Below, in pieces: positions 9,701 to 61,930 of a stretch of 64,000 bases of DNA; position 1 is the first letter of the stretch, and each line of letters begins with the position of its first letter. The notes below the pieces were generated by a model, which was given only the letters and a program-made list of their open reading frames with translations, had not been told where the DNA came from and made no database searches. The translations under genes were made by a program, and so were the position numbers. The DNA comes from Beroe forskalii (lineage: Eukaryota > Ctenophora > Nuda > Beroida > Beroidae): the NCBI GenBank assembly GCA_011033025.1, contig WFMF01000029.1, positions 434,001 to 498,000 of the forward strand, read 5' to 3'.

Positions 9701-12700
9701 ATATAATTCTCAGTAAATTATGGAAAAATAGAAGTTAATATTATAAATAGTTATAAAACAGCTGGTCACGCACCCTAGAATAATACGGAGAATCGTACAG
9801 AGAATCCTGCATTTTTATTGGCTAAAACACAGAAGGTCCTGTATTTTGATTGGTTGAAACGCTGAATCCTACATTTTTAGTTGGTAGAAACGTGAACTGT
9901 ACCACATTTTTGTCGCGGTTCCATTGATTGGTTAATTAACTGACAAGGAATAACTGAAAAAAAAACTTCAAGAAATAACCCTAATTTTCACTAAAGAAAC
10001 GAAGACATTAACAAAGAGCACATCTACTGCTGACCACGTTTAATTAAAAAACACAAAACAAGAAACAAAACCCGGCATTTATATTTCCCTCTTCTCTTAT
10101 AATTATTATTCAATTTAATCAATCTCATAATTAAAACCACACTACTATCATAAATATTTGAATGAGTACAATTCACATATAATAGACGTGTACCACATAG
10201 CATGTTGCCTGACTATTGTTCAGCAGTGTGCTCCATACAATACACATGATGTATTAAACAATTTCATGCATATGCATTACGCTTCATGCATACATTAGAA
10301 ACACATGATGTATTAAACAGTTTCATGCATAAGGCATTACACTTCATGCAATGAACTTAACTATCTTATTTAATATAACTTAGTTCAACTAATAAAGGTA
10401 GTTATTTTCATCCAAAAGTGTTTAAACTAAAATGCGGTTGTATTCAAAACAAACGGACAGAGGGTTGCGGTTTTAAGGTTCAAAAACCTAAATTTGTGGC
10501 ATTCATACAGAAGAATACAGAAACCCAATACGACATAGCATAATGGTAGCAACTTATACGAGTAAGTAAAATTGTAGGATGGTCACTAAGTGACCGGAAT
10601 CGAAGCAAAATCCCACCAGATAATGCCATTCCAGAGGGTTAAACCCTCGAATCACATTGCAGGTTAACTATGGCGTCATCTTGATTACAAACTATAAGAT
10701 TTCGCGAAGGAATTCACAAGAAAATATCAGCGAACGCATAGCGAGAAACCAAATAAAAGTAAAAATTAATGATGTACGTTGGAAATGCTGATTTTTCGTG
10801 CGCATCATAAAATGAATGGAATCCTAAACAGCTAACAGGACATATATTTGTATTAAGACTGAAATCATGGAAACCAACCGTGTGTGCAAATCACAGAAAC
10901 CTAGCCGTGTGTGCAATGTTGAAACCTGAAAGTGTCAGGAGAGAAGCCTCCTTCTCTTCGGTAGACAGCAGAGAAGAGCTATAGAAGATTTAAACACAGA
11001 AGAGAAGAATTATACGCCGCGCACGAGAAATAGGCGGGTAGATGACGTCATTATCATAGCTCAATATAGTGAGTTGATGACGTCGAACCGCCTATTTCTC
11101 GCGCGCGGAGTTTAGAGCAGTATTTTCTTGGTGATGCTCAATGTGTGGAATATGACTCAAAACATCAGTTGAAGATTCTTGAAAAATAAGATTTCCTTGG
11201 GAATGTTTGGATCTACCCCTAAGTTGACATGACAAAATTAAGGTACTCAAGTGCAACCATTGGCAGACTAAACTTGTGACTAAATTCGAGGAGTGTTAGA
11301 GTGAGACTCTTAGGAATGTTCATTGATCAAAGTTGGGTCTACCACTAACTGGTTAAGTTCATAGGACGAATAAACAGTAGATGCTGGCTATGTATACTGA
11401 ACTTGTGCAGCCAAATTGGTAGATTAAACTTGTGTAACCCTTGGTAGACAATACTTGTGAGTAAAGTTGGCAGAAAAAACTTGGCAGACAACACTTAACT
11501 TAGTAACTTGGCAGGCAAGACTTGACTTGGCAGAAAAGACTTAACTTGACAACCAAGGCTTAACTTGGCAAACAAGACTAAACTTGGCAAACTTGTGTAA
11601 CCATTGGCAGCAAAACTGACGACCAGAGACCACAGCAAAAAGTCAATAACCCGAAATGCATCACTTTGAAGTATTCCATATTCATATACCATGACAGTGC
11701 GAGCTATATGACGTCATAGTCAAAACCATTTAAATGTAAATATACACTTGTATAATACGTCACCAATGGCCATTTAAACGTCACCTTCAAATGGTCATGA
11801 TTTAAATATCACGACACCTTTCTTAACTTCCAAAGGCCATTACCAAGATTCGAAACCAAAAGATTACAAAATTCATCGCCATTCAAAAGGATGATGATGC
11901 GCCGCATTCTAAACTTTCAAAAGCCGATTATATTGTGATGCAAAACCTACAAACCTGTGTGAATTTCTAAATTCGAAACATAAGAAAGTCGATGATCGAG
12001 AGCGCCATTTTAAAGGATAATTTACACCAAATTCCATAAGTTCCAACTATTGAAGCCCATTACATCGATATCTCTGCAAACTTACCGTAACCTATAAGTT
12101 CTATAACCTACTTAAAATTACTAAATTCGAAACACAAGAAGCCGTTGATCCCACCGCTCCCACCACTATATTTACCACCAACACAATAGGACAATAGCTC
12201 ATGCCGTTAACACTAATAATCACCGCATAATAGATACTCCTGATGACGTCATTATCATAGTATAACGTAGAACGTTAGTGACGAATCAGGAACTATTTTT
12301 CGCGCGTTGGGTTTAAGGTGGTTCCGTTCGATTACCTGATTATAGGAGCAATTAGCCACTTAGAATGCTGAACAATCTTCGTTTGTGATGGAAATCTAAA
12401 GGCGCTGTGGGAACATAGGCGGGTGAGAATGACGTCATTATCATAGGTTAACATCTGAAATTGACGGGGAATAGGTTTCTATTGTTCGTGTGCGGCGTAA
12501 AACCAAGACGCTGCACAAGGAAAATTAGACGCCTCCCGTCCTCAATACTCCCCATGTCAACCTATGATAATGACGTCACGTCCCATAGCCTGCTGATCCC
12601 GACAAGACATGGCCAGGAAGTGCTGCTAGTTCACAGGATACCGGTCACACCCTGCTAAAATATTAATATCAGCGGAGGATAACTTACCCTCGGGTTTATT

Positions 12701-15700
12701 TGGCATTGACCAATCAGCGCGCGAGTTGAGCGTGAAGTCGTGCGTTGATTGGTTAATTTTGTGGTCGTAGGGGTAAGCTAAAACACTGCCGATAGTAGGT
12801 AATTACTAATTAGATGCTGAGCATATACCGGAGCGCGGTACTTGGGTGAATAGTGCGCTAACAGCCAATAAAAGGGGATGTTTCAACTTTAAATATTTAG
12901 AAATTATATGGGATTAAATGTAACGAATCTTGCAAATTAGCAAGATGTGAAACGAGCATAGTTTATTCAAATATTGAGGAATTGAGTCCAAGTATTGAGG
13001 AAGTCACGTATTATTGAGGGATTGAGTCCAAGTATTGAGGAAGTCACGTAATATTGAGGAATTGAGTCCAAGTATTGAGGAAGTCACGTATTGAGCAATG
13101 ATAACATAGTGATTAGTGATGCTGGCATTTTACAGAGTCAGGAGGAACGTCCCATGAGACCAGTGGATACAATAAAATCTTCAGTAAGTATCAATACAAT
13201 CAACAAACTGAGATACCATGCCATAGCCACGCCATAACAATAACCTATCAATAGTTTCAGTAACAAATTTAAGTCCAAAGTCGTGCCGTGAGTGCGAATA
13301 TTGGTATTTAGGTATTACACCATTGGTACCTTGAAGGATAGTTTTTAATACAATATGATGATTCAGTCATTATGAGATGGCGTTTTTCATTATTATGTCT
13401 TTCACAATGAAAGTCACTGACGCCATATAATACAATGGTACCATGGTAATTGCTTGAAATTGCAAGGTGGGACCACTATTCTTTGTCCTTACAACGTCAA
13501 TTCGTACAATTTATTGCAATATCTTAATTGTAAAGCGTAGGAGGTTTTGAAGGTCCGAATTAAACTCAGTCTGTAGTCTAAGAATAAGCTTCGTTAATAT
13601 ATGGATGCAACAATCAGTGCATGATTCGCGCGAAAACCATTCTAAACCATAATGATGGCTCGATAAGTTCATCATTGTAAACCCTGATAATGGCGCCATC
13701 AATTCATCATTGTAAACCCTGATAATGACGTCATCAATTCACTATTGAAAATCATGATAATGACGTCATCAACTCACCAACCTAAACCCTGATAATGACT
13801 TCACTGTCAAACGCACTGGAATGAATCGTGTATTTGACCTTTGCGTGAACAAAAAGAGAATATAGCAGAACCTCACTAAGTAAGATTAGCGCAACATTTC
13901 ATTACTAATTAATAACCGAAGTAAGCAAAAGTAAGAACAGCTGATCGCAATTTTGCACTACATAGGGTTGTTTGGGTATAGCAAAGTAGGTAACATTGTC
14001 TCATTATTTCAAATGGTAAATGGTAGTGCATCATGATGAAATAATGAGACTAATTTGAAACGCAAGGAAAACTTTATGTACATGAGAGTCCTTATGTAAA
14101 GCAACTGGTGTCAGCATTAACTGGTGTCAGCGTGAACTGGTGTCAGCACTGAACTGGTGTCAGCGTGAACTGGTGTCAGCACTGAACTGGTGTCAGGATT
14201 AACTGGTGTCAGCACTGAACTGGTATCAGCACTGAACTGGTGTCAGCACTGAACTGGTGTCAGCACTGAACTGGTATCAGCACTGAACTGGTGTCAGCAC
14301 TGAACTGGTGTCAGGATTAACTGGTGTCAGCGTGAACTGGTGTCAGCACTGAACTGGTGTCAGGATTAACTGGTGTCAGCGTGAACTGGTGTCAGCACTG
14401 AACTGGTGTCAGCACTAACCTGGTGTCAGCGTGAACTGGTGTCAGCGTGAACTGGTGTCAGCGTGAACTGGTGTCAGCGTGAACTGGTGTCAGCGTGAAC
14501 TGGTGTAAGCACTGAACTGGTGTCAGCATTAACTGGTGTCAGCGTGAACTGGTGTCAGGATTAACTGGTGTCAGCGTGAACTGGTGTCAGCGTGAACTGG
14601 TGTCAGGATTAACTGGTGTCAGCGTGAACTGGTGTCAGCGTGAACTGGTGTCAGCACTGAACTGGTGTCAGCACTGAACTGGTGTCAGCGTAAAATGGTG
14701 TAAGTGTAATATGGTGTCAGCGAGAGTCGTGAAATGGTGTCAATAAGAATTGGTGTCAGCGTTAACTGGTGTCAAGTGTCAACACAAACTGGATTCAGTG
14801 TGAAATGGTGTCAGTGTGGAATGTGTTAGCGTGAACTGGTGTCAGCACAAACTGGTGTCAGTGTGAATGGTGTTAGCGTACGCACATACCTACTAGTGAA
14901 CTGATTTAAACGTGTACTGTGTCAGCCTTGAAAAGAATGAAATGAAATATTGATGCTATCAACTTAAGTGCTATCGGTATAAAATCATCACAAAGTTTAA
15001 TTAACTATACAATATTTCGACAACAAGCTGGCCATCTGCAAATTAAATTAACATACTTTTAGTGCACATTACAAAACATTGATCAAATAATAACATGCTC
15101 CTTCCAGAATAAATCGTAAGGTGTTATAGCTGATTTTAGTTTTAATAAAATCACAGTTAAATAATTATACCGAGCATTTCCGCACCCGTACTCAAATAAA
15201 TAACGGAAAGGGTAAGTACAAAAGAGAAAAAAGGTGAAAACATCAACGACTGTTGAAAATACAACAGCCATATATTATATATGTTGTTGTTATGTAAATG
15301 TGGAATTTGGCAGCCCCAGCAAGAATATTGGTTCAAGTTGGAGCAATTCCAAGATAATGCAAAGTGCAATAAATTGAACACCTCGTTATAATTCTTTGAA
15401 TGTACGCTCAAACTGTTAGTTTATTAAACAAACTCATGGTTAATAAAGTGAGCCACTTTAAAGCTAAATGCGTTTATGGCATTCATTACGAGTCCACAAG
15501 GTGGCCAAGGGATGCATTGATGCAATAATAACGCCTCAATTATTGTAGATTAAAGGCCGTTTATAAGTGAACTTGTAAGAAAACCTGTTTCTAAACACAA
15601 GGAAATATTTTGGAATTAAGTGAGTTTATTGTTATGCCCATCACGCATGTAGTATTGTTGTCTTGCAAGATGGCAAATTTAAATTCAAATTATAGGCAAA

Positions 15701-18700
15701 TTATCGGTCCAAGTGATAAGTACAGATGAGACCAAATATAAAGCTTGATCATGTAATTGGATGGGGACTCCAATGAATAACTACCTTAGTACCAGAAATA
15801 TAGGCGACTAGTAATTAAGGCGCAAAATATTAAGGCGACAAGATATTAAGGCGATTTTTCCTGAAATTCAAATTGAAGTTTTTTTTTTCGAAAATAAACG
15901 ATTTTTCCACTTAAAAATAAAATGGCTATGATATGAAAATACCTTAAATTGAACGAAAATGCAAAAAAAATCTTCTTGAGTGGGGCTTCAAAATACAGAA
16001 CATCATATCCTGAGCTTATCAAACGGGTCAATCAACATTCTAGAGTCAATACCGGCATCTTTACATCGTGCCACAGCGTCAGTGATACCAGAAGTTGCAC
16101 TGATAACTGGCTATTAAGTTATTAATTATGTTTCTAAATTGAAAAAGTCAATTGGGGAGGAAAAATAACTGAAAATAAAGTCTTTTAAAAAATTAAGACG
16201 GCCAGATATTAAGACGACTTAAAGGAAATTAAAATTAAGGCGATTTTTCCAAAATCGCCTTAATTTCTTGTCGCCTATATTTCTGGTACTAAGGTACTTG
16301 TTTTACACCTTATTATAGGAGATTAGCGGGATTATAGGGTTTCCGGAACCAAAATATCAAGAAACCAAAAGCTAAATATATCAAGAATTCAAATATCAAG
16401 AAACCAGAAGGTATCAAGAAACCAGGAGAACATATCTAGGAGAAACATAGTTATCAAACCATATCTCACATCTGATAGAGGAAAACAAAAATCATGAAAT
16501 CTGTGTATGTACTACGAAATATATCACTCATCCCGTACTGAAAAATAAACGTACTTGCTATGTTCAAACACGCACACACATACATACATTGGAACGAGTT
16601 TAAACACAAGGAAATATATTTTATTAAGCAGGCATGATTTCATTAATATTCGCGGCGTATAGCTGTTAAAACTTGCATGATAAACTATAATATCTTGAAT
16701 TAATCGGCATACTACTATTTTAATTAACTATTTTAATTAACTAAAATTCTAATCAACGGTCATTTTGATAGTAATAATAATGATGATTTTTAATAAACTC
16801 ACAGTTCCTCAGAAATAGACGGGATACTTAAATCGGCTGCGTATTAACCAAAATCCTATATCCGAGATCTGAATGAATTGACCAATCAACGCGCAAGTTT
16901 ACGGTCAACTCGCGTACTGATTGGTAAATGCCACATGGACTAACGGGAAAGCTAAAAAGCTGAAGAAAATAAGTTTTGAGAGTTCACAATAAATGAGAAA
17001 CATCAAAGACAAATCACATTGTTACGTTGTTAACTGAGTAAAGTGACGAGCTAAATAATTCTATTTTTAGAACAAAACGTTCACGAAAATGAATGCATTT
17101 TGCGTTGTAGAACTGCATTTCATGAGTAACCAGCAATAATCGACAGTTTTGCATCCTCAACACACCATTCTAGATCATGATAATGACGTCATTCTCAGCA
17201 GTTTATTATTCTGCGAGTGCAACCCATTCACCCATTCAAGGAGCATCACATACGATGAATCGATGACGTTATTTGTTTTCAAATAATAAGATGTGCATAG
17301 GCTATTGAAATTTCTAACAAATCGTATTGGCTGTGTTGTCAATTCATCATCACTCGATTCGCCATGTCACAGTTTGGAAAAGTAATGAAAATTACAGATT
17401 GAAATAGCAGACAATAAGAAAAAAAATGATGAAACAAAATGATGAAAGAAGTTCCCAGCGCTTCAGAGTATTAGTTGAATAAAAAGTTTCAATAAAACAA
17501 AAAAGAAACGCTGCACTAAAACACAAAACCAATAATGAGGGGTACCGAGTATACCTCCATAGCACGAAAATACAGCAAGTTCTTCAGAATAAAACCCCTC
17601 CGGAAAGCTATTGGCAAAGTCGCACAGGAAAGAAACACAAGCAATTCTTAATGACGTAATTATCAGGGTTTACAATGGTACGTTTATGACATAACCATTC
17701 GTCTATCTTTTCGGACTCGACTTTATAATTACAGAATACTGATACGCAGCGAGTACAGATATAGGTTCGTACAGATCTACGCATTAGTCTAGTATAATAA
17801 GTGGGAGGAATATGCGCATTTTTATCTGCTCGAGGATGAAATTGGCGGGAGATATAGAGCTTGGTTTTTCCGGTTGTTTGTATTTTCTGGCATGTTTTAT
17901 ACGTAGTTAAATATTGTGTCAAGATCATATTGAATGTAAAATACCGGAATTTTCGGGGATATCGTTTATTCGCATCATCAAACAAGTGCCATAACAATAA
18001 TACTGAAATATTAAAAATGCTATGCACGGAATAATAAAGTAATAAAGTTCAAGTACGTAAAATAAAACGCAAATACATATCACGCACATCCTACAAACTG
18101 CACAAAATCAAGATAAGAGCTCTTCCAGCGCCATCCTATCTCAGTTAATTCCCATTTAAATCCACCAAAACAAACATATTACAAAGTTGTAATGACGTCA
18201 TTATCATAACGCAAAGTGGTAAGTTGACGAAAAATATCCGCCGATTTTTCGCGAAGGCGACGTTTAATATTTCCACTTAAGGGCGGCGGTGTTTTATTTT
18301 ACCCGAATAAATTCTTTTCTCCACCAATCAGCGAGAAGGATTTGCATGATGGTGCATTGGTGCACGTTGATTGGTCGAAAAATAGAGGGCCGAGGGTGTT
18401 TCGTCAATAGAAAACCTCCCAAGAAATATCTAAAAATAGGCACCCAGACCATTATATTTGCTTATTTGCTATTAATAGGGAAGACCATTTTAATTGCTAT
18501 TTGATAGCAATTATATCTAGAAAAACACGGAAACATGAGTTTATCGAATCATTGCAAATGCAATGTGATTTGTAGATTGACCGTAAATTGGCGCACTGAT
18601 TGGCGCAATGTCACGATAATTTCAGGGATCCTACGGGAAAGCTTATACGCTGTCATAGTAATAGGGAAGATAGGCACAAGGTATTTTTAGGGTGGTGGTT

Positions 18701-21700
18701 GGGTACCCAGTGTAACTTAAAACTCATGCAACATACTGAACTATACGCCTTTCCGGCGACAGAGTCGTGAAGAGAAAATAGGAGGTTGAGACTGACGTCA
18801 TTTTCATGGGTTAGAGTGGGAAATCAAGGACTTGATAATCGCCTGTACCTATATAAGTTGAGCAGCAAGGGTTAAACCTTAGTAATTTTACAGACATAGT
18901 ATCAGTTTAACAATGATATCCTCCTATTTTGGTGCGGAGTATATAGCACACTCAGATACCTGCCAATTGCCAAGCAGGATCCAAGCAGAGGGCAACCCTC
19001 AGCCAGTTTAAATATCTATCGTTACTATATCGATCTAGACGATATAGTACCGTCCAATAGTATCGTTGTGTTGTATTGGACGTTATATAAAGTCTGGAGA
19101 GTGCAGAGTCTACGCTGTGCAGACATACCATTTAAAGCCTCCCTGTAACAAAAAGGTTTGTTACAGGGGCATGTCGAACTCCTATTTGCGCGGCGTTTCC
19201 ATGCGCGGCGTAATCGTGCGCGGCTCACTGCCTGTTTAAATTAATAACAGGCAGTGAGCCGCGCACGATTACTCCGCGCTTGGAAAAGCCGTGCACGTAG
19301 GAGTTCGACACGCCACCGTTACAGTTTCAGAACAGGTTTGTTTCAGAATTCTGAGCAGGTTTGTTACAGGCTTGCGACAGAATTTGGAAATACAAACGTA
19401 AGAGTGGTCCCTTAATAAGAGAGAGAATTATAGATAGGGCCAATGCTGGTTTTCTACCGAAGAAAGAATAGCGTACTCACTCTCTAGAATGAAACTCCCG
19501 GGTTGGTACAATGAGACATCTCAATGCCTCTATCACCGGGTATTTATATCTCCAACCACTCTGACGCAGGCTTGCGAAACACGGAACCAGGCGTTGACTG
19601 ATGGGAGCCAAGAAACACTTCTAGATCAAAAAACACAAGAAATCCTTCAAAGCTGCAGCGGGGCTGTATGATATATTTCGCACAAAAACGCTAAAAAAGG
19701 TGAGCTAGGGTGGGGTCCTCCTGACTTGGTTCTAAGTATTCTAATTTATAGTTTCCTCGAACCGTCTCGCGTCACAATTCGTAATGCGTTTGTTTGGCGA
19801 CGAACACACAATGGGGTCCATTTCCGGAACACAATGAAAGATATAAATACTTAAATATAATTTCAGAATTGAAGAAAGGGCTGGGCCAATAAAGTGAAGC
19901 GAAATTAAAATATGTTGGGCAATAACAGTAACTCACAGAATGACCAAAATGTTGAAATATCATAAACCATTTTTACAAAATTAATCAAACGATAGAAAAC
20001 TCCAAAGTATTAGAAACCTATCAAGTAAACAAGCTCTAAGACGGAAGTAATCTCTGCGATTTCGATGGAAAGAACAAGTTTTCCTTTCGCCCTACCTGGA
20101 GAAAAACATGAGCAGGGTCAATATGCTGCTACTCAGCGAACAATTTCGATGTTTGGTACGTGACTCAAAAGTGGTTGAATTGACGTAATTATCACAATTT
20201 AAAGTGAAAAATTGTGATCTCGAAGCCCTTTTCATGGGGATGGGACGAAAATATTCATGCTCAGATATTATAAGTATCACGAGAATATGAATAAATTTCA
20301 ACTGTGAGAAAATAATTCCAAAACTTGAGGAGAATAGTAGGCATTTTATCATAATAAATTTATCTACTACCAACACAGAGAAATTGTATGATCCATAAGT
20401 CTTGCACAAGTTTTTAGCCATGAATATTAATTCATGCTGGCCTAAGGCCGAATATCTAGGTGGCTGAATTTCGCAGTTCGTGATCAAAACAGTGGTGTGA
20501 TAATTAAACGCCGTCTAAGATTTCAATCACGTTAACATAACATAAAATATTATTCAGCTCTCAATTAAACGAAAAACATCAAAAAAACTTAACACAGAAA
20601 GAAAACTAGTTTACGATTTTTAAAGCCAAAGAACACAATCAATCACAATCTCGAAAGAAGATTTCGAGGGACAGAGTTATAATTAAAGCAACAAACTTCG
20701 CAGATATTCATCAAAAATGACAAAGATTGCACAGGAACTGTCACTTTAAATAGGATTATTTATTGCGATATTCTTTTCGAAAGTAAGAGCGATATATTAC
20801 GTAATGATTTTGTTGCTTCAGGACATACAAATGCTACATGGGACGCATGATGATGTAATTTATCGAAACAAAAGCAAATACACACCGGCATAAGAGATAA
20901 AGGCGATGTTCAGATGACGTCATTATCATAACGCAATGTAGTAAGTTGATGGAGTTTGAATGTCTGATTTTTCCGATTGCGCAAAGTTTATTGCGTAATA
21001 AATTTAATTGTGTTGTAATGATTTTGTTATCCGCTTGATTGGAATGTAAACAAGAAATATGGGACAAAAATAGTAAACAAAAGTCGGTCTCATGCTGATA
21101 CTGCTGTCACAAAGTCTTAACAAGAATGAATTAAGAAATCAATGTAATCAGCGATGATTGAATCCCAATTTAAACGAATAATAACGATTGATTTGAAATA
21201 ATGCTTAGTTGGAGGAAGAATTTTGATTTTGAAATCATCTTAATCTTAAATCTTGAATCTCATAAGGACAAAGCAATGTTCTCAAATCGTGTAGGAGGAT
21301 GTAACATGACAAATCACAAAATATAAACTGAGAAAACAACATAACATAATTTTTGTCAAAATTAAAGGAAAATATTCTGTAAAAACCGACATTTCCGGTT
21401 CGTAATTCCCTGCTAATTTCGGCACGCTTAATCTTACTCATAAACAGTGAACACTGATCTATACTAATACATGTGTTCGTCTAGAACTCCAGAAAAACCA
21501 AAAGTTCGTGTCGAAAATGACACACCGCAAAGCCAAAAACTCGAAAACAAAACACTTACAGTTTAAGACTGGAGATCGTGTTGATAGGTGACCGAGGTTT
21601 CGCAGTCGGCTCCGAATCAAAATACGCAAATTCTAGATTTTTCAAAACATCGTCATATGATTATGTGTGATAATGATATTCATTATTCTGAAGAATGCAG

Positions 21701-24700
21701 GGTAAAATATACCCGCAGGTGAAGATCTGGACAGATCTGATATATAAAAGTCGTTCCCATCCACAGTAGCCCTGTCAGCAGGGACCTTCCAGCGGGAAGT
21801 CCCTTGCTGGGGACTTTGTTTGGATCTCTTGCAGATCCATCCCCTGTTTAGTAGATATGAAATTAAACGACCCCAAATTCTGCTCCGCGTTTCCGATCCA
21901 GCACATGATGACTCTCGTCAAATTTACACTGGCTCACTACACCTGCGCTAGACTGGTGCTAAACGCGTAGACCTGCATTAGACCTGAATTAACCCAGCGC
22001 CAGGCCGAAGTGACATACTCAACGAGTCTTGTAGATATAATCCTACTGCCCCAAATTCAGCTAAGAAGAAAAGAAAGACCGCATCACGGCACACCAAGCT
22101 GAAGTGGCCAATACCCATCTAATACTCATCCACTCAGTGGTTTATATTATATAAGAAGAGGGACAGTGGTCACTGATGGGCCGATTTAATGATATCGACA
22201 GATGATATGACCAGGTTTACCCACGACTCATATGTTCTCGACCAATGAGAACACAGGAGGTAGGATATACTGTTCGTTGATTGGTTGAGCGAAGGAGAGC
22301 GCTGCCAGCAAGTCTTCTTCAGGAGGAATAGACTCGGCGAAGGCAGATCATGACCTGGTAGTCCCACTCATATAACATGAGGGGTCGTCAGGAATTTGAC
22401 ATTTTGACAAAAGGGACACAGGAAGAATTATATATATCAGAGGATGGGGTGGTGATGAAGTCATTATCATAGATTAAAATGTTGAATTGGTGATGATAAA
22501 ATGGCTATTCTATAGTATATTGCGGCAGCTCTAGATTGGATGAGTCCGAGCCAAAGTATCAACAACAAATCTAACAATCATAAAGACAGGCATCATCAGA
22601 GCCATGTCAAATACTTATAACAATTAACCACAATATCATCAACAACACACTAACAATATTCAGTAACACAAGCAATTACTGTCTCTCTAGCTGTGTCAAT
22701 GTGACAGATCGTGTCAATAATATAAGAAAGATCGTGTCAATAATATAGGAAAGATCGTGTCAATATATTATGAAAGATCGTGGCAATATATGAAAGATCG
22801 TGTCAATTTAAGAAAGATCGTGTCAATAATATAGGAAAGATCGTGACGATACTTCAATAGGTTACATGACATTGTTATCAATAGGATTCGTTATAATACA
22901 GCTTGTTACCTATATTATTCTTGTTATATTTGTTTGGTGATTGTCTACTTCATTATTGCTCGACTCTATAACCCTTTGGACTGTATGAGGGACCTTAGAG
23001 AAAACATTGACGCCCTATTGATTCTATATTTTTGAATCAAAATCATTGAAATAATTCCTAGAATTTCATGTCCTGAAGCGAATGAATACACCAAGTTTCT
23101 TGGCAGGTACAGAATTATAAGTTTCTGAGTACCAGACAGATAGAATTTGAGTACCAAGAATTTGACTGTACTTCGATCTCTACGTCAGTTGGGCAGGGCA
23201 ATAGAGTGCTACAGTGGTTTTATTTCTTTGTTACATAAGGTTATCCCATGGTAAAATCGTGCTGGTCACGTGATTTCGTTGCCGGAGGATTGAACCGGAA
23301 TTCCTGCAGCGTGACTAGGAGATGGTCAATTGGTCGACTGTCTGAAGTCCAAATTCTCTGAGTGGCGTAACCCATCTTTTTGTAACACAAACTTTTAGGA
23401 AGGCATTCCTTCTCATAGCAGGGAGAGTTCAAATCTGTCACGTGACATTCTTTAGTCACGTGACATGCACCAGTTTAGTCACGTGTTATAAGATGTAGTG
23501 GTGTGAGAATCATGTCTGGTAAAATTACCTTATATATTATGACAATCACATAGCCGAATAATATGCTGCCAATATTATGTATCTGACATGTGATTAGCTT
23601 GACAGCTTCATAATCTCATAATAAAAGATAGCTCGTAAATTACCAATCACCATTTATCATTTAAAAGTTCGTTATACATCCACCCCATGTCAGCTTCCTC
23701 AGCCCCCAAGTTTCCCATCAAAAACATAATTTTTGAAAAAATTTTCAAGCATTAAATTTGCAACTTTTCTAGTTTGGCGGCTGGTCATTGCAAATATAAT
23801 CCAAGTTTTGGTGGAAATCATCAATTCTTAACAATTTAAACAGTGACAAATCATCAAATTACCAATCTTCACCATGGCAACAAACAAAATATTCAAATAA
23901 TAAACAACACTCCAAGTACGTTGCAGTTGCACAACAGGAGTGTGTTAAAGTGCTTTTACCATAACACCGCCATCACATAACAGACACAAAGAGTAATAAT
24001 GAGTAAAAGAGAAGAGGCGGGCCTTGCATTGTCGTCAGAGTGACATGGTGTTGCGTAACACCTCTTGACACAAACAAAAACCACAAATAACAAACTTACA
24101 AACTAACAAACTAACAAATTATAAACTTGCAAACTAACAAAGACAAACGTCAGTGTCAAACACGAACAGAGAGTGAGAGGGATGGGCATTGGTAAACGAT
24201 TATTGGGAAAAGGTCAAGCTCAAAGGGGAGTGACAAAGGTAAGAAAAAGAAGGATAAAAGGGGCAAGATTATTGAATGAAGGGGTAATTCTGACTTGTGT
24301 TAATTAAAGGGATGAAAGGACTCAAGGAGCTCTGATGAAGGGTTCAAGAGGCAGGGAAAGCGAAGGATATGGGGGTTTAAGGGACAACTCATATCACTTT
24401 CAAAAGCTAGCGATATCAAACTTTCGTAACATTTAATAACGTTTCCAACTTTCCTACTAACAGGGGCGTGTCGAACTCATATGTGCGCGGCGTAATCATG
24501 CGCGACTCACTGCCAGCTTGCCAGTTAATGACAGGCAGTGAGCCGCGCACGATTATGCCGCGCATGAAAAAGCCGCGCACGAATGAGTTTGACACGCTAC
24601 CGTAACAACAAACCAAACGCACCTATCAAGACTCTCTGCGATGGCACCATGTTCCCCCGATTTGTCTGAGTAGGCTCGCTCTGCTGTCTGTCTGGGGTTG

Positions 24701-28400: not shown

Positions 28401-30589
28401 TGAGTATATAAATTATACCTAGTTCGAATAGTATTTTAATCTACAAACCACAGAGTAGAGTTGTTCCACTCGTGACTTTTCGTATCAACTGTTGGCAATG
28501 AAAACAGTAGACTTTCTAACCCTAGTTTAAGATTCTCTTCTGGATGGCATGGTGGCTCAACTCAAGGGTAGAGTGCCTGTGTGACTGAAAGACCTTGTTA
28601 GCCAATATTTGTTTTATCAGTTAAAACTTGTTACAGTATGAACGTTCGTATGTACGTATATACTGTAGTAATTTAACATTGTTTCACGTAGGATTTTAAT
28701 TTCCCTTCAATCACAGACGAAAATGAGACTTCATGAATTAGTACAAAATCTTTCACATTATATCTTCGGATGAAACGTTTTCAAATTTCATTGTCAACAT
28801 CCTCAAATTTGATTGTATAAAGTAGTGTTGTAAAGTTTAAAAGTTATTGTTTCACGTATACTGTACGTATAGATTATTTGGTTGCACTCCTTTTTGCAGC
28901 ATATAAATTATATGGTCCGTATTGTACGTATAATAATTACCTTGTTTCACGTAATTATACATCTTTTGTACAGTCATAATATTATATGTCGGCATGGTTC
29001 ATCTAATGTTATAGCTAGTTACAGAGACAATATATTCCTCTCAAAAAGACTTTACTCCTCCCCAGTTTATTATACGCATCGCTGCATGCACCAATATATA
29101 TATATTCCTCATCAAATGATAGTTTCACAGGAAGGATATAAGTCGTATGACGTCATCAATTCACCATTTTAACGCGTGATGCTGACGTAATGATCGGCTG
29201 GTTATATATTAAATTTATAAGCGATACATAAACATATTTCTCTGCCATATGTGCTCTTAGCTTTTCCCTTTGAAGTTCGAACTGTAATTGTGTCTATAAG
29301 TCTTAAATAATATTACATCTCGTGGTATCTGACTATGAAGTTATAGCCCAAAACTCAAAAACGTTGGGAAAAAGCGTATTTTCAGCATACAGTAAAGTAG
29401 CAAAATTATATGTTGACCTGAATTTCGTAGATTTCGGTACAAACATTCGATTTTTTCACTCGTTATGTTCGAGCAGATTTGATTTCGAGTAGGCAGAGTT
29501 TGTACACTTGAACAGAAAAGTTATCTTGTTACTTTATTAGGTCTAATAACGATAATAACGCGAAATTACATATTTCCATCTGCGTCATAGGAAATCTAGA
29601 AGCCGTAAGATTTCAACCGTTTAGCGCCTGGGCCCAGTAGATAACTCCTCGAAATCTGTTTACCTTTTGGTTTTAAAATGTTAAAACTTGGAACACGTAT
29701 ATAATGTTTCGCCAAGAATTTTCGAGCTAGGTTCTTGCTTTCTTGGTTGAGTTCTTGTTTCTTGGCTGATTTTCGACTCACAAAAAAGAACCAAGTTATC
29801 AAATTAGTTGGATTCATAAAATCCACCTGTGGCTTACGTGTGTGTCACTGAGGACATATGTGATAATCATAACAGCATATCCTATAGTCAGCACTGTAGT
29901 AGCTCAATTTCACGCTACCTTTTCGAGCAAAGCTCAAAGTGAACTAAGCTCCCGAGCCAGTGCGAATAAGTTGATTGCTCTTTCACACAGCCATGTGAAC
30001 ATATATCTTAGCAGTAAAACTTAACCATATAAATACAATATTCGTTGAATTTAAATTGTCATAAATCTCGCAACCATCGGTTTTATATAATGACCGATAT
30101 AAACTCTGTTTAGGTATTGCAATACTGTCACATTATTAGACCCATAGTCCCTAGTAATTTGATAGCATAGTCCCATTGTAACTTTGTGAGCCGGAGCCCA
30201 ATCGATAATTGTGTAAGCAGGATCGATAAATCACCTGGGCGGGGCGTCATTACGAAGTGTTATAAATGCAGGTTCATGACGTAAAAAGGCGAACCGCCTA
30301 CTGCTATTTTGCTTCACAATGGAGCTCTATATTATAATGTGGTATTGGGGGCATCTGCCCCTCTGACTTATATCGAGGCAGTCTTAGTAAGCCACAGATT
30401 TGATGACGTCATTATTATAGCCCAAAGTGGTGTGCTTATGACGTTTGAGCACATATCTTATCGCAGGTTTATCACCTTTTATCATAATAGTATCGTTAAC
30501 GCTTGCAAAACTCCGTGCATGATATTTAATTGTGAACGCTTGGACGCTTGGCTAACTTTGTCAGTTTATCAGTTACCCACGAATATCGA

Positions 30590-30700
30590 TAAGCGGTTGA
30601 GAGTGACGTCATTATCATGGTTTGGAGTGGTGAGTTGATGACGATTATAATCGCCGCGGCATAGCGATCTTGCTTGTACATATATTCCGCGCGCGTTGAG
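30590..30700. mobile_element. CRE-core MITE copy; further partial cores at 30240-30310 and 30395-30450
   Basis: GAGAGTGACGTCATTATCAT, then GAGTGGTGAGTTGATGACGA and TTCCGCGCGCGTTGAGTTAA. Two more cores sit within the preceding 350 bp. Confidence 0.55.
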
Positions 30701-32269
30701 TTAATTCGGCAGTAATTTCACTATTGTAATTTGGTACAAAACATGGGGTATAATATTAAGCGTCGTAGTTTTGCGCCAGACATCTTTTGAGAGTTAATGC
30801 ATGATAAAATTAGTGTAATCAAAAAGTCGACACCCAATTAAAATATTCTGAAATTCAAGTGTGTTCCATATATGATATATTGAAAGTTTCATTTGCGTGT
30901 ATTAAAGTGTCCATTTTGTGTTTGTCAAAACTTCTATATCAAAATTTATTCGACACGCAGTCTGAAATAATGGCTGGTTTAATTAGGCTAATATAATAGC
31001 AATTTCACATTATTTACGATGCTCACGTTCGAATTTTAATGAAATCAAAATTGATATTCCAAAAATTCTCGTTCTTTCTGAGTAGACTCAATTAGAAGCA
31101 GTTTTTAAATTAAATCAAAATTATAGCCATCAAAATTATAGCCATCAAAATTATAGCCATTCACCCCTTCAAAATTGACATTCCAATTCTAAATGTATAC
31201 TTGCTTACTTGTATAGATTAAATGAAAATTCAATGTAGATTCAATGTAGAATGTAGATTTATAACTAGATCGAGAATAAAGACATTGCTTTCACTGATTC
31301 CCTTCAACTTAATAAATGATGCCTGCAATCTGGATATATAGGTGTAACTCAGTTTCAGACTGCCCAAGTCGAGCGATCGAAACTCTCCAAGTCAGAATAA
31401 CGGACATCAGACCTTTGCTAATAATATTGTGTGAACGTGAGAACTTAAATTATTTAAAATATAAAACGTGAAGTCCGGAGATTCAGCTAAGACCAGCCCG
31501 ATTATTGAAGGGAAGTCTCAAAACAACGCCCACAAGACGTCTCCACAAAGATTTTGATAGCAGTTCATGCGCGCGCGTAAAATAGACGATTTAGTGTCAG
31601 CATTTCACCATGTTAAGCCATGATAATGACGTCACTCTCATATTTGTAGTTTTAGAGTCCAGTATATTATGCAGTAAGTGTAAAAGTGTGGGAAATTTCA
31701 ATTGCTAGAACTTGAATACACATGTCCATTCGTGATATATTTCGATTACGATAATCTTTTAAGTTTTAAAGACGAAGTTATCATGTACATCAGGATAAAT
31801 TCAGAAATTCAGAATATTATTTTGTTAAAACTCATATATCATTATCCTGAGTACTGCAGTTATAAGATTGTAATAGTGTACATTCGTGTGACTTCGTCAT
31901 AGAAATCTTGTTAAAGCTTCGCATATGTTGGGTTTCAAACCACAGTTGCCGCCCGAATTGATTCTGTTTTTGTTACTTTGTCGGAATTGGATTATTCCCA
32001 TTACGAGAGACAAAAGTACTTTGTTTTGAGTCTAATTTTCTGTTATTAGTAAGGTGATATTAGATAAAATTTTTGCATAACCGGGAAAAAATTGATACAA
32101 GCATAAAACCTTCACTAAGAGTTAGTTTTAGGTCTAATAAACATACCCTGAAAGTTCTCAAACTCAGATACCTTGAGAACATTTTTTATGGGCCACGCCC
32201 TTTTTTGGACTGCCCAAAATTCCCCAAAATTGCCAAAAATTTAATTTCAGTCCGACTAGGCATGTAGGG

Positions 32270-36975: not shown

Positions 36976-37084
36976 CTTGCACCTGCTGAATAACACTACG
37001 ACTAGTGAGAGTGTAATCAAATGATGATATTAGGTGCGCCAGAGAGATGGGGGCCACTGTGTACATGATTACTAGATCTGCTCC

Positions 37085-37179
37085 TGCGCACCAGAAATAG
37101 GCGATGTGACGTCATCAACTCACTACATTGAGCTATTATAATGACGTCATCCTACCCGCATATTTCTCGCGCGCGACGT
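37085..37179. mobile_element. CRE-core palindromic MITE
   Basis: GCGCACCAGAAATAGGCGAT, two TGACGTCATC cores, and CATATTTCTCGCGCGCGACG. The ends are slightly decayed. Confidence 0.8.
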
Positions 37180-40100: not shown

Positions 40101-42228
40101 AATCGCATTATTATATTCCTTTGTCTCACTAATAACCTGTGTCGGGGATGTATGGGGATGTGACATAGTACCGGGATAATGAGATATTGCGCGGAAATCT
40201 TACACAAACATTGAAAAAAGAACTCAAAAATTTAAGATATATACGATAACGATTTCATTAATTAGATCTAAATTAAATCTTTAAAGGACCTATAACCTCG
40301 TTACATCACCAGTGGAATGATAATTATTGATACCGCACTCCAAATTTTACTTAAAAATTTATTATTGTTTTTCATGCGGTCTGATGATGCGTTTTTATGG
40401 TAATCTTGTTTAGTGTTTACGAAATCTTGTTACGAGAATTCTAGAAGGTTTTGATACAGTCTTCAGATAGGATACAGTCTTCATTCCTCTACAAATACAA
40501 TTTCCTTGCAGATATTTCTCCTGGAAAATTGTTGAAATTAAATTTAATTGGCTTATAATTTTCTCGTTGACTCATTAATACCACATTCTATCGGTATGTA
40601 CACTAAAATGATATCAATAAACGAGTGCAGACTCTCGTATCCGATTACAATCAAGTATCGGCCCCCAAAAATGTATTTTGCGTCCTATTCTCTTGACTTT
40701 CATTTAGATAAAACGTCATCAGTGCGCGTCAAATTTTCAAACAAATTAACCGAGCGTTTATTTTGTTCTTCAGTTCAACTCAGTACACCATTTCCCCCTT
40801 TTTTCTCGTATAGCCAGATCGCTCTTCTCCAAATGTTTCTAATCCATAAATCTCGTTGTCTGGCTTCAGGACCCACAATCGCCTGTTTCGGATCGATTTA
40901 TTGTATATTATACGCTGTCTAGGTCCCATTGGACCGTATCGACTAGGTACGAACCGTTTACAATCCGTAGATCTGTCATGCTCGCAATGTTGGTGGATTG
41001 ATTGGTTAATTAACCATTGTTAACCATGATAATGACGTTATGACACGATTTTCTATCATATTTTGCGCTCCTATGTCCGTTCTTTATTTACTCTTTATAT
41101 TATGTTTTAATGTGCGTCCTGACATTGAATTAGGGTGCATCTCCAATCGTACTTGTTTTCCAATTATTATCCTTGATTAAAATTGCGTTCTTCACGAGAA
41201 TTTCACAGCTCGTTTGTGATATTCATCGAAATATCAATTGTTTTTATGAAATACCACTTCACAGAAAGCGTACGGATAAAATGTTACGTAAAACGTTTAT
41301 AATTTTATTTTATGATTCATCAGAAAATAAACGGGAGCTCGGCGTCCCAGGTATTTTGATTAGTAATCATGATTCTGTAATTGCACTGCGACAACGAATA
41401 GATCATATTTTCAGAATATTTTAATCAAAGTTAGCCAATTATGTATGCTGAGATAATAAAATCTTAGCAAGAAACGCCTTCAATAATTCCTTGCGCTCAA
41501 CGTATATCATATATGTGTGTTGTAATCTCGAGATCATTAATGGAAAATTGCCACAAGAATCATTTCTCAAATATATTGTGTGTCAAATATTCAAAATTCA
41601 CATACTACCATACTACGAGCTGAGATAGATATGTATGTAATTTGAAATGGTCCCTTGATTGTCGCGTTGTGATGAGTCGCGTCTCATCTCTTGAATGTGT
41701 CTCGATGTATCGAGTTGTCTCCTCCTTACTAAAGTATTCTGCACTCCCGAGCACTCCTAACTTTCGTATGTTGTCGAGAAGGAGTTCATCTGATTGCTTT
41801 CCGACATGAAATTATAGGTATCTTCCCGAGGAATGTTTTGTAAAATATAACTTCTGAGCGTAGTTATAGTGTTTCCCTCAAGTTACTATATTCCCTCCTC
41901 GAGTTACTACTTTACTAGGATGCCTGATGCAACATATATTGTCATAAACATCGTATATTTTAGCATGATATTTTGTGACATTGTCGTTTACTATGCGAGT
42001 TCCCAGATTATTATCCAGGCATTATGTGACACGGTAAACATTCCTTCGGGAGCTGTAGGATGCAAGGCTTGGATACTATTCGAACAGATTCGAGGCGACC
42101 TTTGGAGATCGTTTGTTGGTCTTCATATTGATAGATATTGACAGTTATGCTTTTCAAATTTCTTCATTCGATGCCTTATTGCCTTGTGATGGGAAATATA
42201 TACTATCTTATTCCTCTTACAAACCCTT
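37180..42228. other. No convincing gene; AT-rich intergenic
   Basis: CRE-core repeat pieces lie at 39420, 39920 and 41025. The frames at 40548-40922 and 41869-42141 have no family resemblance or clear donor sites. Upstream PNKP exons were sought here and not found. Confidence 0.55.
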
Positions 42229-42274: not shown

Positions 42275-42292
42275 TTAGTTAGACACCCTCTA

Positions 42293-50411: not shown

Positions 50412-51263
50412 AGTTGAGGTTGGGTTCGTCACTTTCCAGGATGATGTTGACCTTCAGGGATTGTCCTCTGAGGACTGGGCCGATTAGAATGATATAGCTA
50501 GTGAAAAATGCCAAAATGGGGAGAAAATACTATTACTAAGCGTTGTTAAATGATCCGTCTATAGTCAGTTTTGGAAGATCTAAATTTTATTTAAAATAGA
50601 AGATGGCATTAAGACAATCAGTATTTATGGTTTTGCAAAGTACTAGATAGCTTTGCTTTTTTTAATCACATGATAAGGATATAATATATTTTTAATTTCT
50701 CTCAAAAATACACGTTTTTATCTGATATCTTTAATGAGGATTTCGGTACACTGCCAGTTTCAACGTTGGTTACCCAAAGAACATAAAAACGGATGAATTC
50801 CAACGTTCTTTCGCCTAATAACATAGTCAGAAGCTAACTTTTATCATCAGAATCAAGGCTCGCGTTTTAGAATCAACACTCAACTGTGCCGGGTTATGGA
50901 AGTCACTGAGACTTAGTGACGAAATAAATCTGTGGGATAAAAGACATAAATATTCAAAAATAACTCTTCTATTTTGAAACATCTCGACTACTTAAAGCAT
51001 AAATATGGCGTGCTTCAGGCAGCTGCTTTTGCGTCATTAATTCGTTGCTTGAAATCGAAATAATGACATCATTCTGAACGGCATATCATTTCTGGCTGAA
51101 CTAACTAATTGGACCGGTTTTCGTATCATTTTCCTCGGTTTTCTCATCATTTTCCTGACGAAGCTATCGGAAAAGTGCCTCTTCTTCCTCGTCATCACAT
51201 CATTTCAACAGTCATTGTCCCTCGTACTCCGTGTATTTAGCTCTAACCTGCCGGTCCACGTGT

Positions 51264-53285: not shown

Positions 53286-55059
53286 CTCGGAACTGGGAAG
53301 AGTCGTTATCAGTTTCAGTGGAATCAGTCTCCAAGTTCTGGAGAAATTTGTGTCATTTCTTGTTCCAGTATGTTCCACTCCTAATAATTTCCATTGTACC
53401 GGTCCTTAGTATAATTCCGATTTGGAATGCAGTTCTACTCAGTATGTCAATAAATACTAATTCCCAATGAGAAGTAGCATGTCAGATTGTCTTCTACCTT
53501 CATGCCTCAAAACTCTGTAAACAGTCATATTATGAAACAGTCAAAATATGAAAATATGACCAAAATATGTGTATGGAACAAAAGTACTTTTACTAGGGTA
53601 CTTCTAGGAATCCAGGTGGCTGGGAAGCTTCTAGATCGAATTTGAAATGACGTTCTAAAGTGGTGGAAGTACAGACTCTGCACAGTGGATTAAATCAGAG
53701 AGTATTCTACAGAAAATGAGAATTCTCGCGAATTATTAATTAGGACAATGACTGACGTCATAATCAAAGTCTTGAGTGCAGTATTGATGTCCTTATATAA
53801 GTTTAATAAAAGTGCCCTTTTGTGTAAAAGTGATATTTTATAGGCTCTAATATATTTAGTTCTTAGCCTAGCGAGGCAACCGACAACGTCAACCTTTGTA
53901 AAGTTATGCAATTCTTGCAAAAACATACCTTTCATTGTGTAAAAATATCACACTATTGAATTATTCACTGTGTTGCAGTTGAGTCTGAGTGTGAGAGTAG
54001 CTGCTGCAATTTGCGAACCGCTCTTTTTGATAGTATTTTACTGTGCATAGACTGCGTCCTAAGCATTAAAATTTATTAAACTTTTTGTCTTTTTAAATTT
54101 CTATTTGCTTGGTTGCAAATAAAAGTTTGTATTTTACTGTCATAGTTTCTCAGTTTACGCCCGCATCAGATCAGCTCAATTCAAGACTTTTAAAATGTGA
54201 TAACTTCATACTAAATTCAATTTTCAAAAATCCTGATTTTTCGTAATTATTTAAGTCCTCATGCAGTTACCATTTACCGAATTTTTCACTGACGTAAGAA
54301 GTTTAGGTGGAAATTTCATTTCTCTGTAACCTGATACAATCAACGACGAAGGAAGTGGAGAATTGAATTATAACGCCCTATGGCATCATTCATACGTCCT
54401 TACTTCAGACCTTCAGCTTCATATAGGATTTCTGAAATTGTTTGCAAATTATTCTCGCTTTTTCAGTTGCAAAATTCTTCTCGCTTTTTCAGGTTGCTCT
54501 GTCATCTACTGAGACCCTGAGAATTCTTCTGGCTTTTTCGGTTGCACAATGCACAGCTGTGTCACCTTTAGAACCCCATGAGCTATTGTGACGTGGAATC
54601 TCAATCCAGAGAAACGTTGCTCCGATTCCAGAACCAAAAGTGCAACCGTTCTCAGGAAATAATACGTGATACTTTTCCTGCAATTTCTCTTTTGTTTTCA
54701 CTTTTTTACTCTGAAAATCATTATTATTTTACCGGGGATTCATCTCATAATCTCATAAGTAAATATTGAGTTTAGTAAACTCAATTTTGCCCGACATAGT
54801 TTTCGGTAATCCGGTAGTTACGTAATGCTTTTACATCTTTATTATGGTTGTGCAACGTGTAAATGATTCATTTTCAGTTTTCTAAATAGTAATTTCTGGA
54901 TATTTTTTAATTAAAGGTCTCTCCTCTTCAACTGTTCGATACCCCATGCCTCAAAGTCAGTATGCTTTGATTATTTCTGCAAGCGTCCATTTTTGTTCCA
55001 GCACTTGCATTTTTAGTTTATCCCTAAAGCACCCTTGCGATTGAAACTATGGCTTGAGA

Positions 55060-55995: not shown

Positions 55996-56479
55996 CTTCA
56001 CTTACCAGCCTAGTGTTACAAATATAGCCATAGAAATATAGTGTTATTGTTGAGTCTTATTGGTACATAGCATTGGCAGTGAAGAGTAATGTAAATATCA
56101 TGGCTTTGGGTGCTGAAAAGATGCCACCAGACTGCCTAGATGATATTATTCAGCCTTCCAAATATCAGTCTGCAAAGTACCAACTTCCCCAAAATATAGT
56201 GCGTCCAAAGTACCAACTCCCAAGCTATAGTGTGGTACGTAGGTACCCTGATAAAATACACTGGCATATATTGATTGGATTAAATTGGACTTGTGATTTG
56301 CAATATTGTGCTTAGCAGAGAAGTCTACCACGCGCCTCTACGAGACATAGTTATATTGCATTGTTCAAGAAAGTCCGTTATAGTCCTCGCAGCTTGCGTC
56401 ATCAATTTAACAGCTTAACCTATGGTAATGACTGCAATTTATCGACCTATTTTGTTTGTGCAACCTTCGGAGCTCTAAC

Positions 56480-56805
56480 GTCAGTACAGGGCAATTTTAC
56501 TGGTACTTCCTGAGAAGTTTCTAGAGTTTCACCTACGTATATCCCACCCTTTATATCACCCTGCGTATGTTTTTGGTACCGACGATAATCTACGAACTAC
56601 AGAAGTGCTGTAGTCCGATCAGGCTATATCTCATTATGGTATATAAAACCTCACAGCTGCTTCATCAATCTGCCATTTTAAACCATGAAAATGACGTCAC
56701 ATCATTTTGTGTGAAACCAGTGGATCTCTAACGTCATAGTACCAGGCAATTTCATACCGGTACTGTCTCAGAAGTTTCTAGAGGTTTACGTAGGTATCCT
56801 GTATC
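56480..56805 (+). repeat. Direct duplication, ~245-bp offset
   Basis: AACGTCAGTACAGGGCAATTT to GAGAAGTTTCTAGAG recurs at 56730-56805 (AACGTCATAGTACCAGGCAA to CAGAAGTTTCTAGAGG). A CRE-core half-site lies in between (56692). Confidence 0.65.
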
Positions 56806-57012: not shown

Positions 57013-57096
57013 GTTGACCAATCAGCGCGCGACTTACGATCAACTCGCGCGCTGATTGGTAATTGTCAAATTAACTTGCGTGCTGATTGGTCAATG
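57013..57096. mobile_element. CCAAT-palindrome element, extended copy
   Basis: TTGACCAATCAGCGCGCGAC and ACTCGCGCGCTGATTGGTAA form the palindrome. A third arm, TGCGTGCTGATTGGTCAATG, follows within 30 bases. Confidence 0.7.
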
Positions 57097-59669: not shown

Positions 59670-59721
59670 TTGACCAATAAGCGTACACGATTTGTTTGAT
59701 ACTGCCCGCTTATTGGTTGAA
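59670..59721. mobile_element. CCAAT-palindrome element, diverged
   Basis: TTGACCAATAAGCGTACACG and GCCCGCTTATTGGTTGAATG as facing arms. Confidence 0.5.
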
Positions 59722-61127: not shown

Positions 61128-61208
61128 AGGATGAAAGCCTCAATAGGATCAAAGCAGATCATTTCTTAGGATCAAAGCAGATTGGGCTTTAGGATCAAAG
61201 CAGGTGCC
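61128..61208 (+). repeat. Short tandem repeat TAGGATCAAAGCAG
   Basis: Four copies of AGGATCAAAGCAG or close variants. Confidence 0.75.
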
Positions 61209-61293
61209 ATTTGGCAGCTGTTAAGAAACGATCCCGCTTGCGCTTGACACTATCAACTTGGCACTATGACTTGGATTGATTGAGTGGATTATA

Positions 61294-61383
61294 CTAAAAA
61301 TAGGCGGTTCAACGTCATCAATTCACTACATTGAGCTATGATGATGACGTCATCCTACCCGCCTATTTCTCGTGCGCGGCGTA
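61294..61383. mobile_element. CRE-core palindromic MITE, left end lost
   Basis: AAAATAGGCGGTTCAACGTC on the left and CCTATTTCTCGTGCGCGGCG on the right, with a TGATGACGTCATCC core. The left terminal CGCCGCGCACG is missing. Confidence 0.8.
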
Positions 61384-61930
61384 TAATGCACCATCACTCG
61401 GATTGCTTGAATGGTTATACTACTCATATTAATGATAATTAATATATTACTAGTAATCACCATTCAGAGTGCATCTCACTGTTACTTACAGTCACATATT
61501 ATTATCATAGCTCTGCATTATTAAGTAATTATGTATGAAGCTGTGGCGGTTACATGTAATGCATAATGATATTATATTTCCTAATTAGCTGGACTTTCTC
61601 ATAATTAATCAATTAATTAGCTCACGAAGGAGCTATAAATATAATATATATTCATTAGCTTAATATGATATAACGGTCACCACTGGTTCACCAGGAGCAG
61701 TTAGATTATTACGCCCTGCGACTTATGAAATATTGATGACTCAACGTCATCAATGTGCCATGTTACGCTATGATTATGACGTCATCGCCATAAATTACGC
61801 CTGTCCGTTTCTTAAAGCAGTGACTGATGAGCAGCAGCTCATTTTCATAATCTGTGCGGAGGAGAGAGGGAGATAGGGTGCTCATTGCTCTACCTGTCAC
61901 TCTGTAACACCTTACATCTTTACATGACTA

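Follow-up and report, generated by a model that had tools for sequence, protein, structure and literature searches.

What is the repeat of about 100 bp which recurs through the stretch of DNA analysed here, and why is its centre so well kept? The stretch, called the window below, comprises 64,000 nucleotides at positions 434001-498000 of contig C347; genome-wide searches covered the 216-Mb assembly with its 1134 contigs. The original prediction had described a palindromic repeat spreading paired TGACGTCA sites, and had offered two readings: a regulatory network dispersed by the repeat, or a core needed for transposition. We found that the repeat is a non-autonomous DNA transposon, a miniature inverted-repeat transposable element (MITE), of 105 bp, that is 101 bp with TA on each side. 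The best overall explanation of our results is a MITE with a core needed for its spreading, whose heart expands into tandem arrays at exon edges (rough probability 0.55).

We observed that the repeat is present in the window, as had been claimed, and far above chance. There were 31 matches of TGACGTCATTATCAT, the heart of the 105-bp MITE, with at most 2 mismatches, while 100 shuffles gave a mean of 0.24 (maximum 2). For TGACGTCA, 25 exact matches were detected and 0.79 expected. Profile search of the window identified 30 single copies and one small array. Genome-wide, the 18-mer TGATGACGTCATTATCAT occurred 230+261 times and its reversed control 0 times. Ten 10-kb stretches picked without regard to the repeat contained 18 copies; 7 of the ten had none.

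A consensus of 105 bp was obtained from 30 full-length copies. It reads TA, WACGCCGCGC ACGAGAAATAGGCGG, about 6 bp, TGACGTCATTATCA, a linker of about 21 bp, TGATGACGTTGAA, CCGCCTATTTCTCGCGCGCGGCGTW and TA. An inverted arm (TAWACGCCGCGC..GAAATAGGCGG) is located at each end, and the interior between the arms consists of TGACGTCATTATCA, the variable linker and a second TGACGT. The arms measure 40 nt with 80% complementarity in the copy at 11012 and about 27 nt in the consensus. Both 13-nt inner arms were found exact in 224 copies genome-wide (reversed control 0); this pattern is its own reverse complement, so 224 matches on each strand represent 224 elements. The inverted arms, the TA duplication and the many short non-coding copies support the earlier assignment of the repeat to MITEs.

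Among 28 copies with recognisable ends, 22 carry TA on the outer left side and 26 on the right. A target duplication of TTAA, TWA or greater length was dropped, as left ends read YTAW and right ends WTAR. Further, one insertion was compared with empty sites. The copy at C606:100961-101065 is inserted in another dispersed repeat and has TA on both sides of the filled site. When its flanks were joined, 39 of 39 other matches ran across the junction with 79-92% identity, mostly without length difference (40 of 119 candidates scored, matches judged by alignment and not by reading the letters). Since the joined flanks match uninterrupted elsewhere and the filled site is flanked by TA, we conclude that TA was duplicated on insertion. 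When empty sites were sought locally, no match spanned a junction.

The TA duplication is as in Tc1/mariner, but we do not file the MITE under that superfamily. The DDE_3 transposase had 5 matches in the genome, 4 of them over the cut-off. The outer 13 letters of the MITE with another continuation gave 46 matches and 55 in the reversed control, therefore this count is not meaningful. Twenty of these 46 matches share one continuation and define a second repeat family, which starts TTATACGCCGCGC and goes on GCTCCGTTGATT; several repeat families may share one transposase end. At L052, positions 1437-1536, we noted a MITE with good arms and a middle that is unrelated except for TGATGTCA near the left arm.

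We wanted to see whether the core is better kept than the rest of the element. Sliding 16-mers were matched to 259,900 local bases after masking of the copies through which each locus had been selected, and gave 53 matches for the core, 6-10 for the arms and 6 for the linker AGCTCAATGTAGTGAG (reversed controls 0-2). The linker matches were as few as those of the arms, therefore the linker varies as much as the arms. The earlier statement that the arms decay while the core is kept holds for the core, which was kept better than the linker even when hidden from the search, but the arms are not special in their decay. One block at a time was then hidden from profile searches. The training copies had originally been detected through the core, which leaves some bias, and the measured blocks lie inside the outermost arm blocks. 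The values were as follows: TGACGTCA was kept at 0.86 (69 copies span the block, 34 intact), TTATCA at 0.84 (85 copies), ATGACGT of the second site at 0.73 (79 copies), the linker at 0.57 and 0.64, positions 21-27 at 0.44, positions 69-76 at 0.48, and the inner arm at 0.84 (14 copies) and 0.75 (17 copies). Copies ascertained by their arms showed 8 changes in 304 letters of TGACGTCA and 19 in 228 letters of the second TGACGT (P = 0.004). This set comprised 46 young copies, out of 50 taken from the 224, after 4 were dropped (two with incomplete sequence, two identical to a neighbour); for site counts 8 copies with indels were excluded, leaving 38. We conclude that the 14-bp core is kept better than the linker, beyond detection bias.

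The pairing of TGACGTCA was confirmed in part. In the arm-ascertained copies (n = 46) the first TGACGTCA was intact in 35, but two TGACGTCA were present in 3, the second site being usually TGACGT only. The CpG letters were changed in 0 of 76 cases at the first site versus 12 of 76 at the second (38 copies). Changes in the same 38 copies were divided into private ones, which mostly postdate insertion, and shared ones, which were carried by copies that multiplied. Private changes were equally frequent in the core (8/532, 1.5%), at positions 57-66 (6/380, 1.6%; P = 1 versus core) and at positions 67-74 (4/304, 1.3%), a comparison of core and 57-66 that rests on 8 and 6 events in young copies only. 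Shared changes amounted to 8/532 (1.5%) in the core, 17/380 (4.5%, P = 0.012) at 57-66 and 20/304 (6.6%, P = 0.0002) at 67-74. Since private changes were equal and shared changes rarer in the core, the constraint acts on multiplying copies. These results support the view that the core marks copies that spread and is not kept at insertion sites for gene control; selection in place on TGACGTCA was not seen, private changes of core and linker being equal in these young copies with few events. Copies losing the 14-bp core would not go on spreading, and the core would be retained for this reason. The ends would be recognised by the transposase or by a factor of the host that transposition requires, with the core probably forming their inner half. 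Comparison of private with shared changes offers a way to separate sequence kept for mobility from sequence kept in place.

The 9-mer TGATGACGT occurs twice in the MITE, in direct orientation and 35 bp apart. Because of this direct repeat, the heart of the MITE could duplicate in tandem into arrays of a 35-bp unit. Genome-wide, two perfect cores 33-36 bp apart were found at 379+213 = 592 places (reversed control 0), and their linkers differ from array to array. There were 3-20 units in the 12 arrays read fully, and 38 in L059 once its flank was joined. Most arrays have no arms, while a few retain a stretch resembling the right arm. At L048, positions ~2194-2212, overlapping direct copies of TGACGTCATTATGACGTCATTATCA were observed, a core expansion of very short period.

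We analysed the flanks of 44 arrays and found 17 clearly at an exon edge, 4 probably so, 2 after a stop codon and 21 with no exon. The first 12 arrays were taken from 100 of the 592 places listed, mostly long ones, and 7 of them got wider flanks after six looked suggestive. The next 20 came from the same 100 with flanks unseen beforehand, other listed arrays being left out. The last 12, previously unseen, came from new contigs (C106 in one case; in another, a different part of C161) and were analysed on the 5' side only; six more are not included. Arrays in L003 and L006 are outside these totals, and L093/L094 and L109/L110 are paralogous pairs. In the first set, 6 of 12 arrays were preceded by a coding exon whose edge, its end or, on the other strand, its start, lies 2-16 nt from the core (the slash marks the exon edge):

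L057: GAG/GTGAGTGGATG, then core; PDZ gene
L056: VTR/GTGAGC.., core-type repeat 16 nt on
L059: ACG/GTGAGTTGA, then core
L055: core-CTTCCTCGCAG/; collagen-like
L064: core-CTTCAG/
L058: core-TTCTGTCCGACAG/; SLC35F gene

In the PDZ gene the exons across the array-bearing intron join in frame, and the profile score rose from 42.4 to 49.8 and then to 79.6 bits with the next exon. The second set gave 7 clear cases (L079, L080, L082, L088, L090, L092, L096), 2 less sure ones (L097, L098), 2 located 31 nt past the stop codon of a G-alpha gene (L093, L094) and 9 with nothing. The third set served as a prediction test and gave 4 clear cases (L101, L104 and the paralogues L109 and L110), 2 probable (L102, L105) and 6 with no exon; 4 of its 12 5' flanks were above the 95% level of random window stretches. 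Pfam supports IMD (L088), BACK (L092), G-alpha (L093), PDZ and SLC35F, and at E 0.01 gave no match for the exons of L079, L080, L082, L098 and C77. By eye, we take these exons to be 7TM-like, GalNAc-transferase-like, phosphatase-like and NUDT9-like. In the window itself, at 6541-6976 on the minus strand, the diverged core TGATGTCATTAGCA lies about 20 nt past a possible donor, GG/GTGATG, of an open frame with high coding score, which makes this copy a possible single-unit exon-edge case.

The coding side was the 5' side of the core in 23 of 23 exon-associated arrays, and none had only its 3' side at an exon. Sense arrays touch donors and antisense arrays touch acceptors. The coding score of 150-bp flanks of 31 arrays had a median of 7.4 on the 5' side and 3.0 on the 3' side (random window 3.0; Wilcoxon P = 0.00026); the random 95% level was exceeded by 11/31 and 1/31 flanks, respectively, and at L057, the source of the sole high 3' flank, the intron is short and this flank is already the following exon. 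Five open frames served to train the codon model, and the exon beside L056 is part of one of them. Some exons are missed by the cut-off, and its best frame can be a wrong one (L055, L056, L097, L109, L110). As the score is imperfect, we give both the score and the count by eye. A class of arrays, mostly with the linker GGGGTTAGAGTGGTGAGTTGA, is located at exon edges with one polarity, as shown for about half of the arrays seen.

Linkers starting with GGGG were present in 13/17 exon-edge arrays versus 2/15 others; among the 12 arrays of the third set, chosen for that linker, 6 had no exon. The modal linker contained antisense YTNAY in 29/32 arrays (random 35%) and GTRAG in 9/32 (random 3.6%). 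On one strand the 35-bp unit resembles a 5' splice site, on the opposite one a branch point; its GTGAGT and, on the opposite strand, its CTAAC-like site might make it tolerable or useful at intron ends. A perfect 25-bp direct repeat, exon end plus donor, was found on both sides of the array in L088, and this duplication suggests insertion or template switching there. Among the 32 arrays analysed for target duplications, only one chance-like 10-mer (L079) was detected besides L088, and none of at least 10 letters in the other 30. Either MITE hearts expanded into these arrays, which survive best where introns end, or the unit reaches such places by a route of its own.

Since the difference between core and linker survives block hiding, arm-only detection and the comparison of two TGACGT within one element, we consider it very unlikely that the core has no special conservation, being merely found by itself while linkers differ between subfamilies. 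This reading draws on the centre of the linker (positions 50-54), which clearly varies by subfamily, and on the training of the masked models with copies first found by the core. Somewhat less unlikely, in our opinion, is the network of CREB/ATF sites put forward in the original prediction. The perfect palindrome TGACGTCA is the cAMP response element (CRE), these 8 letters are the best kept, and 35/46 arm-ascertained copies keep them; the adjoining TTATCA reads TGATAA on the other strand, resembling a GATA-factor site. Against this reading, core and linker have private changes at the same frequency, and the second site lacks protection and in most copies falls short of a full CRE. Next to coding sequence, solo copies showed a weak enrichment at most, with 4 (5' side) versus 0 (3' side) of 106 (median coding scores 3.3 versus 3.0, P = 0.054). 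A core needed for transposition fits the private and shared changes and the unprotected second CRE better. Several observations weigh against our explanation. The private changes are few; the inner arm at 11-20, where the alignment reaches, was kept as well as the core (0.84, n = 14); and a genome-wide search for the arms with a different interior returned only 2 places, both 105-bp MITEs, so that the autonomous partner was not detected. The core is also kept in arrays that lack arms, and a role as transposon end gives no reason for this. Within arrays in general, the core was changed in 72/1848 letters (3.9%) and the linker in 163/2772 (5.9%, P = 0.003), where units are not independent, units with more than 3 core changes are uncounted and detection bias acts in the same direction. 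Given this slightly lower variation of the core and the many arrays found at exon edges, there is room for a role of tandem arrays at genes.

The 35-bp unit could instead be primary, an introner-like exon-edge repeat entering introns beside splice sites, with the sense strand supplying the 5' splice site and the antisense strand the branch point, and the MITE would have picked up one unit later. The polarity of the 17 clear, 4 probable and 2 post-stop arrays out of 44, the coding 5' flanks (11/31, against 1/31 on the 3' side), YTNAY and GTRAG in the modal linkers, the rise of the PDZ score on joining exons and the direct repeat in L088 all argue for it. We still regard it as doubtful, since the other 31 arrays show no target duplication (one chance-like 10-mer), about half of the arrays have no exon, longer introns of some genes consist of an array only in part, traces of the right arm of the MITE persist in some arrays, and the arrays share descent, so that features of the unit are not independent. 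A slightly less doubtful, though tentative, formulation is that the unit is an array-forming mobile exon-edge repeat with the fixed end TGACGTCATTATCA read away from the exon, in one orientation at donors and in the other at acceptors, that it supplies donor- or branch-point-like sequence, and that MITE and arrays exchange it. Least probable would be that the GC-rich arms carry the loop-anchor motif of ctenophore CTEP1/2 and that the MITE seeds promoter-enhancer loops. According to the text of PMC12221973, a GC-rich motif with two CpGs, bound by CTEP1/2, marks >75% of loop anchors in Mnemiopsis, and >90% of its looping promoters carry DNA-transposon insertions. The MITE arms are CpG-rich and the host genome is probably that of a ctenophore, but the motif is printed there as a figure only (PMC12221973). 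We therefore retain the MITE with a core needed for spreading. If the polarity of its arrays holds genome-wide, the repeat would mark exon boundaries in unrelated genes (PDZ, BACK, IMD, collagen, SLC35F, G-alpha and others). This would concern the way in which introns lengthen and acquire splice signals in an animal lineage that branched early; comparison of related species could then test where the sequence at intron ends comes from.

The copies identified in the window are given below. The four copies that had been called full were confirmed, and all 16 coordinates given earlier for partial copies coincide with copies of the profile search, from which all rows from 12231-12315 onwards are taken; five rows are marked as new, not having been named in the original prediction.

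11012-11114, plus: young full-length MITE copy; arms 11012-11041 and ~11086-11114, core 11043-11057, second site TGACGTC at 11078
25714-25817, minus: young full-length MITE copy
37084-37179, minus: nearly full-length MITE copy; two full TGACGTCA at 37107 and 37142
61295-61383, minus: MITE copy without outer right end
13660-13812, minus: tandem array of the 35-bp unit, 4-5 units, no arms recognised; not a single copy
12231-12315, plus: old MITE copy
12412-12498, plus: old MITE copy, both arms still recognisable
12508-12592, minus: old MITE copy
17133-17211, minus: old MITE copy
17631-17712, plus: old MITE copy
18186-18263, plus: old MITE copy
18776-18848, plus: old MITE copy
20159-20230, plus: old MITE copy
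20888-20975, plus: old MITE copy
22448-22510, plus: old MITE copy
26055-26137, plus: old MITE copy, new
29135-29199, minus: old MITE copy, new
30396-30459, plus: old MITE copy
30588-30654, plus: old MITE copy
31570-31639, minus: old MITE copy
39398-39462, plus: old MITE copy
39899-39994, plus: old MITE copy
41007-41043, minus: core fragment, weak (E 2.3e-4)
51022-51090, minus: old MITE copy, new
53751-53795, plus: core fragment, weak (E 1.4e-4)
56069-56138, plus: old MITE copy, new
56394-56462, minus: old MITE copy, new
56657-56700, minus: core fragment
61726-61788, minus: old MITE copy
6541-6600, minus: old copy adjoining an open frame with high coding score (E 4e-4)
63525-63609, plus: weak old copy (E 1.9e-3)

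A receptor of the rhodopsin type and an open frame with a SET domain are also present in the window, which indicates an animal or near-animal genome; scans with Rfam and for tRNA gave no matches there. Another inverted-repeat element is located at 15776-16302, with 47-nt arms that are 91% complementary and 433 nt apart; these contain AAATATAGGCGAC, which recalls the MITE arm AAATAGGCGG. Long tandem arrays of a 16-bp unit, AACTGGTGTCAGCATG, and of a 22-bp unit (14103-14879 and 24838-25240) and further repeats of the ACTGGTGTCA type are unrelated to the MITE.

COX1 was found on a contig of 13,339 bp (C1134), where TGA is read through four times. In the matched COX1 stretch 5 of 7 AGA/AGG codons align with arginines of mammalian-type COX1 chains in PDB, therefore AGR codes for arginine, as in code 4. 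Code 4 is used by non-bilaterian animals; where it occurs in a mitochondrial genome that is small, poor in tRNA genes and fast-evolving, Ctenophora is indicated. T amounted to 56% of the 10,000 bases read from this contig, and ARAGORN (bacterial setting) detected no tRNA in them. The start of a nad3-like protein appears to be coded twice (L050, ~4311-4500 and 7600-7750), which may reflect a duplication in the contig or a join made in assembly.

In the open-licence literature on ctenophore repeats, MITEs, introners, CTEP1 and splice sites we found no published description of this repeat. MITEs with TA target duplication include Tc1/mariner-type and other elements. Ours resembles them in being short and non-coding, with inverted arms, TA duplication and many copies, and differs in its end WACGCC, which is not tied here to any transposase, in its expandable 35-bp heart and in a core better kept than the linker. 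The pearl/MINE elements of molluscs are repeats with internal tandem units. They are likewise mobile elements whose central unit expands in tandem; unlike them, the MITE has a 35-bp unit, inverted arms with TA duplication, and arrays found without arms. With the cAMP response element it shares the same 8-mer, although conservation in place was not seen in young solo copies. Placozoan Mutator terminal inverted repeats and the ctenophore CTEP1/2 motif, as described in the text of PMC12221973, are alike in presenting a DNA transposon end with a repeated regulatory-like motif in a non-bilaterian animal; the CTEP1/2 motif is GC-rich with two CpGs, while the core here has one CpG. The closest parallel to repeats placed at the ends of introns is offered by introners (Gozashti et al. 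2022, PMC9860276); the main text of that paper lacks the words ctenophor, Mnemiopsis and tandem. Introners are dispersed repeats at intron ends with splice-like signals, and some families are MITE-like with inverted repeats. As in introners, the repeats stand at intron ends across many unrelated genes (17-23 of 44 arrays). Unlike introners, which constitute the intron and provide its two splice sites, the array reaches one intron end only, the other end lying outside it (L057 and L090, the two introns followed through), and the repeat forms tandem arrays of variable length which keep one polarity to the exon on both gene strands.

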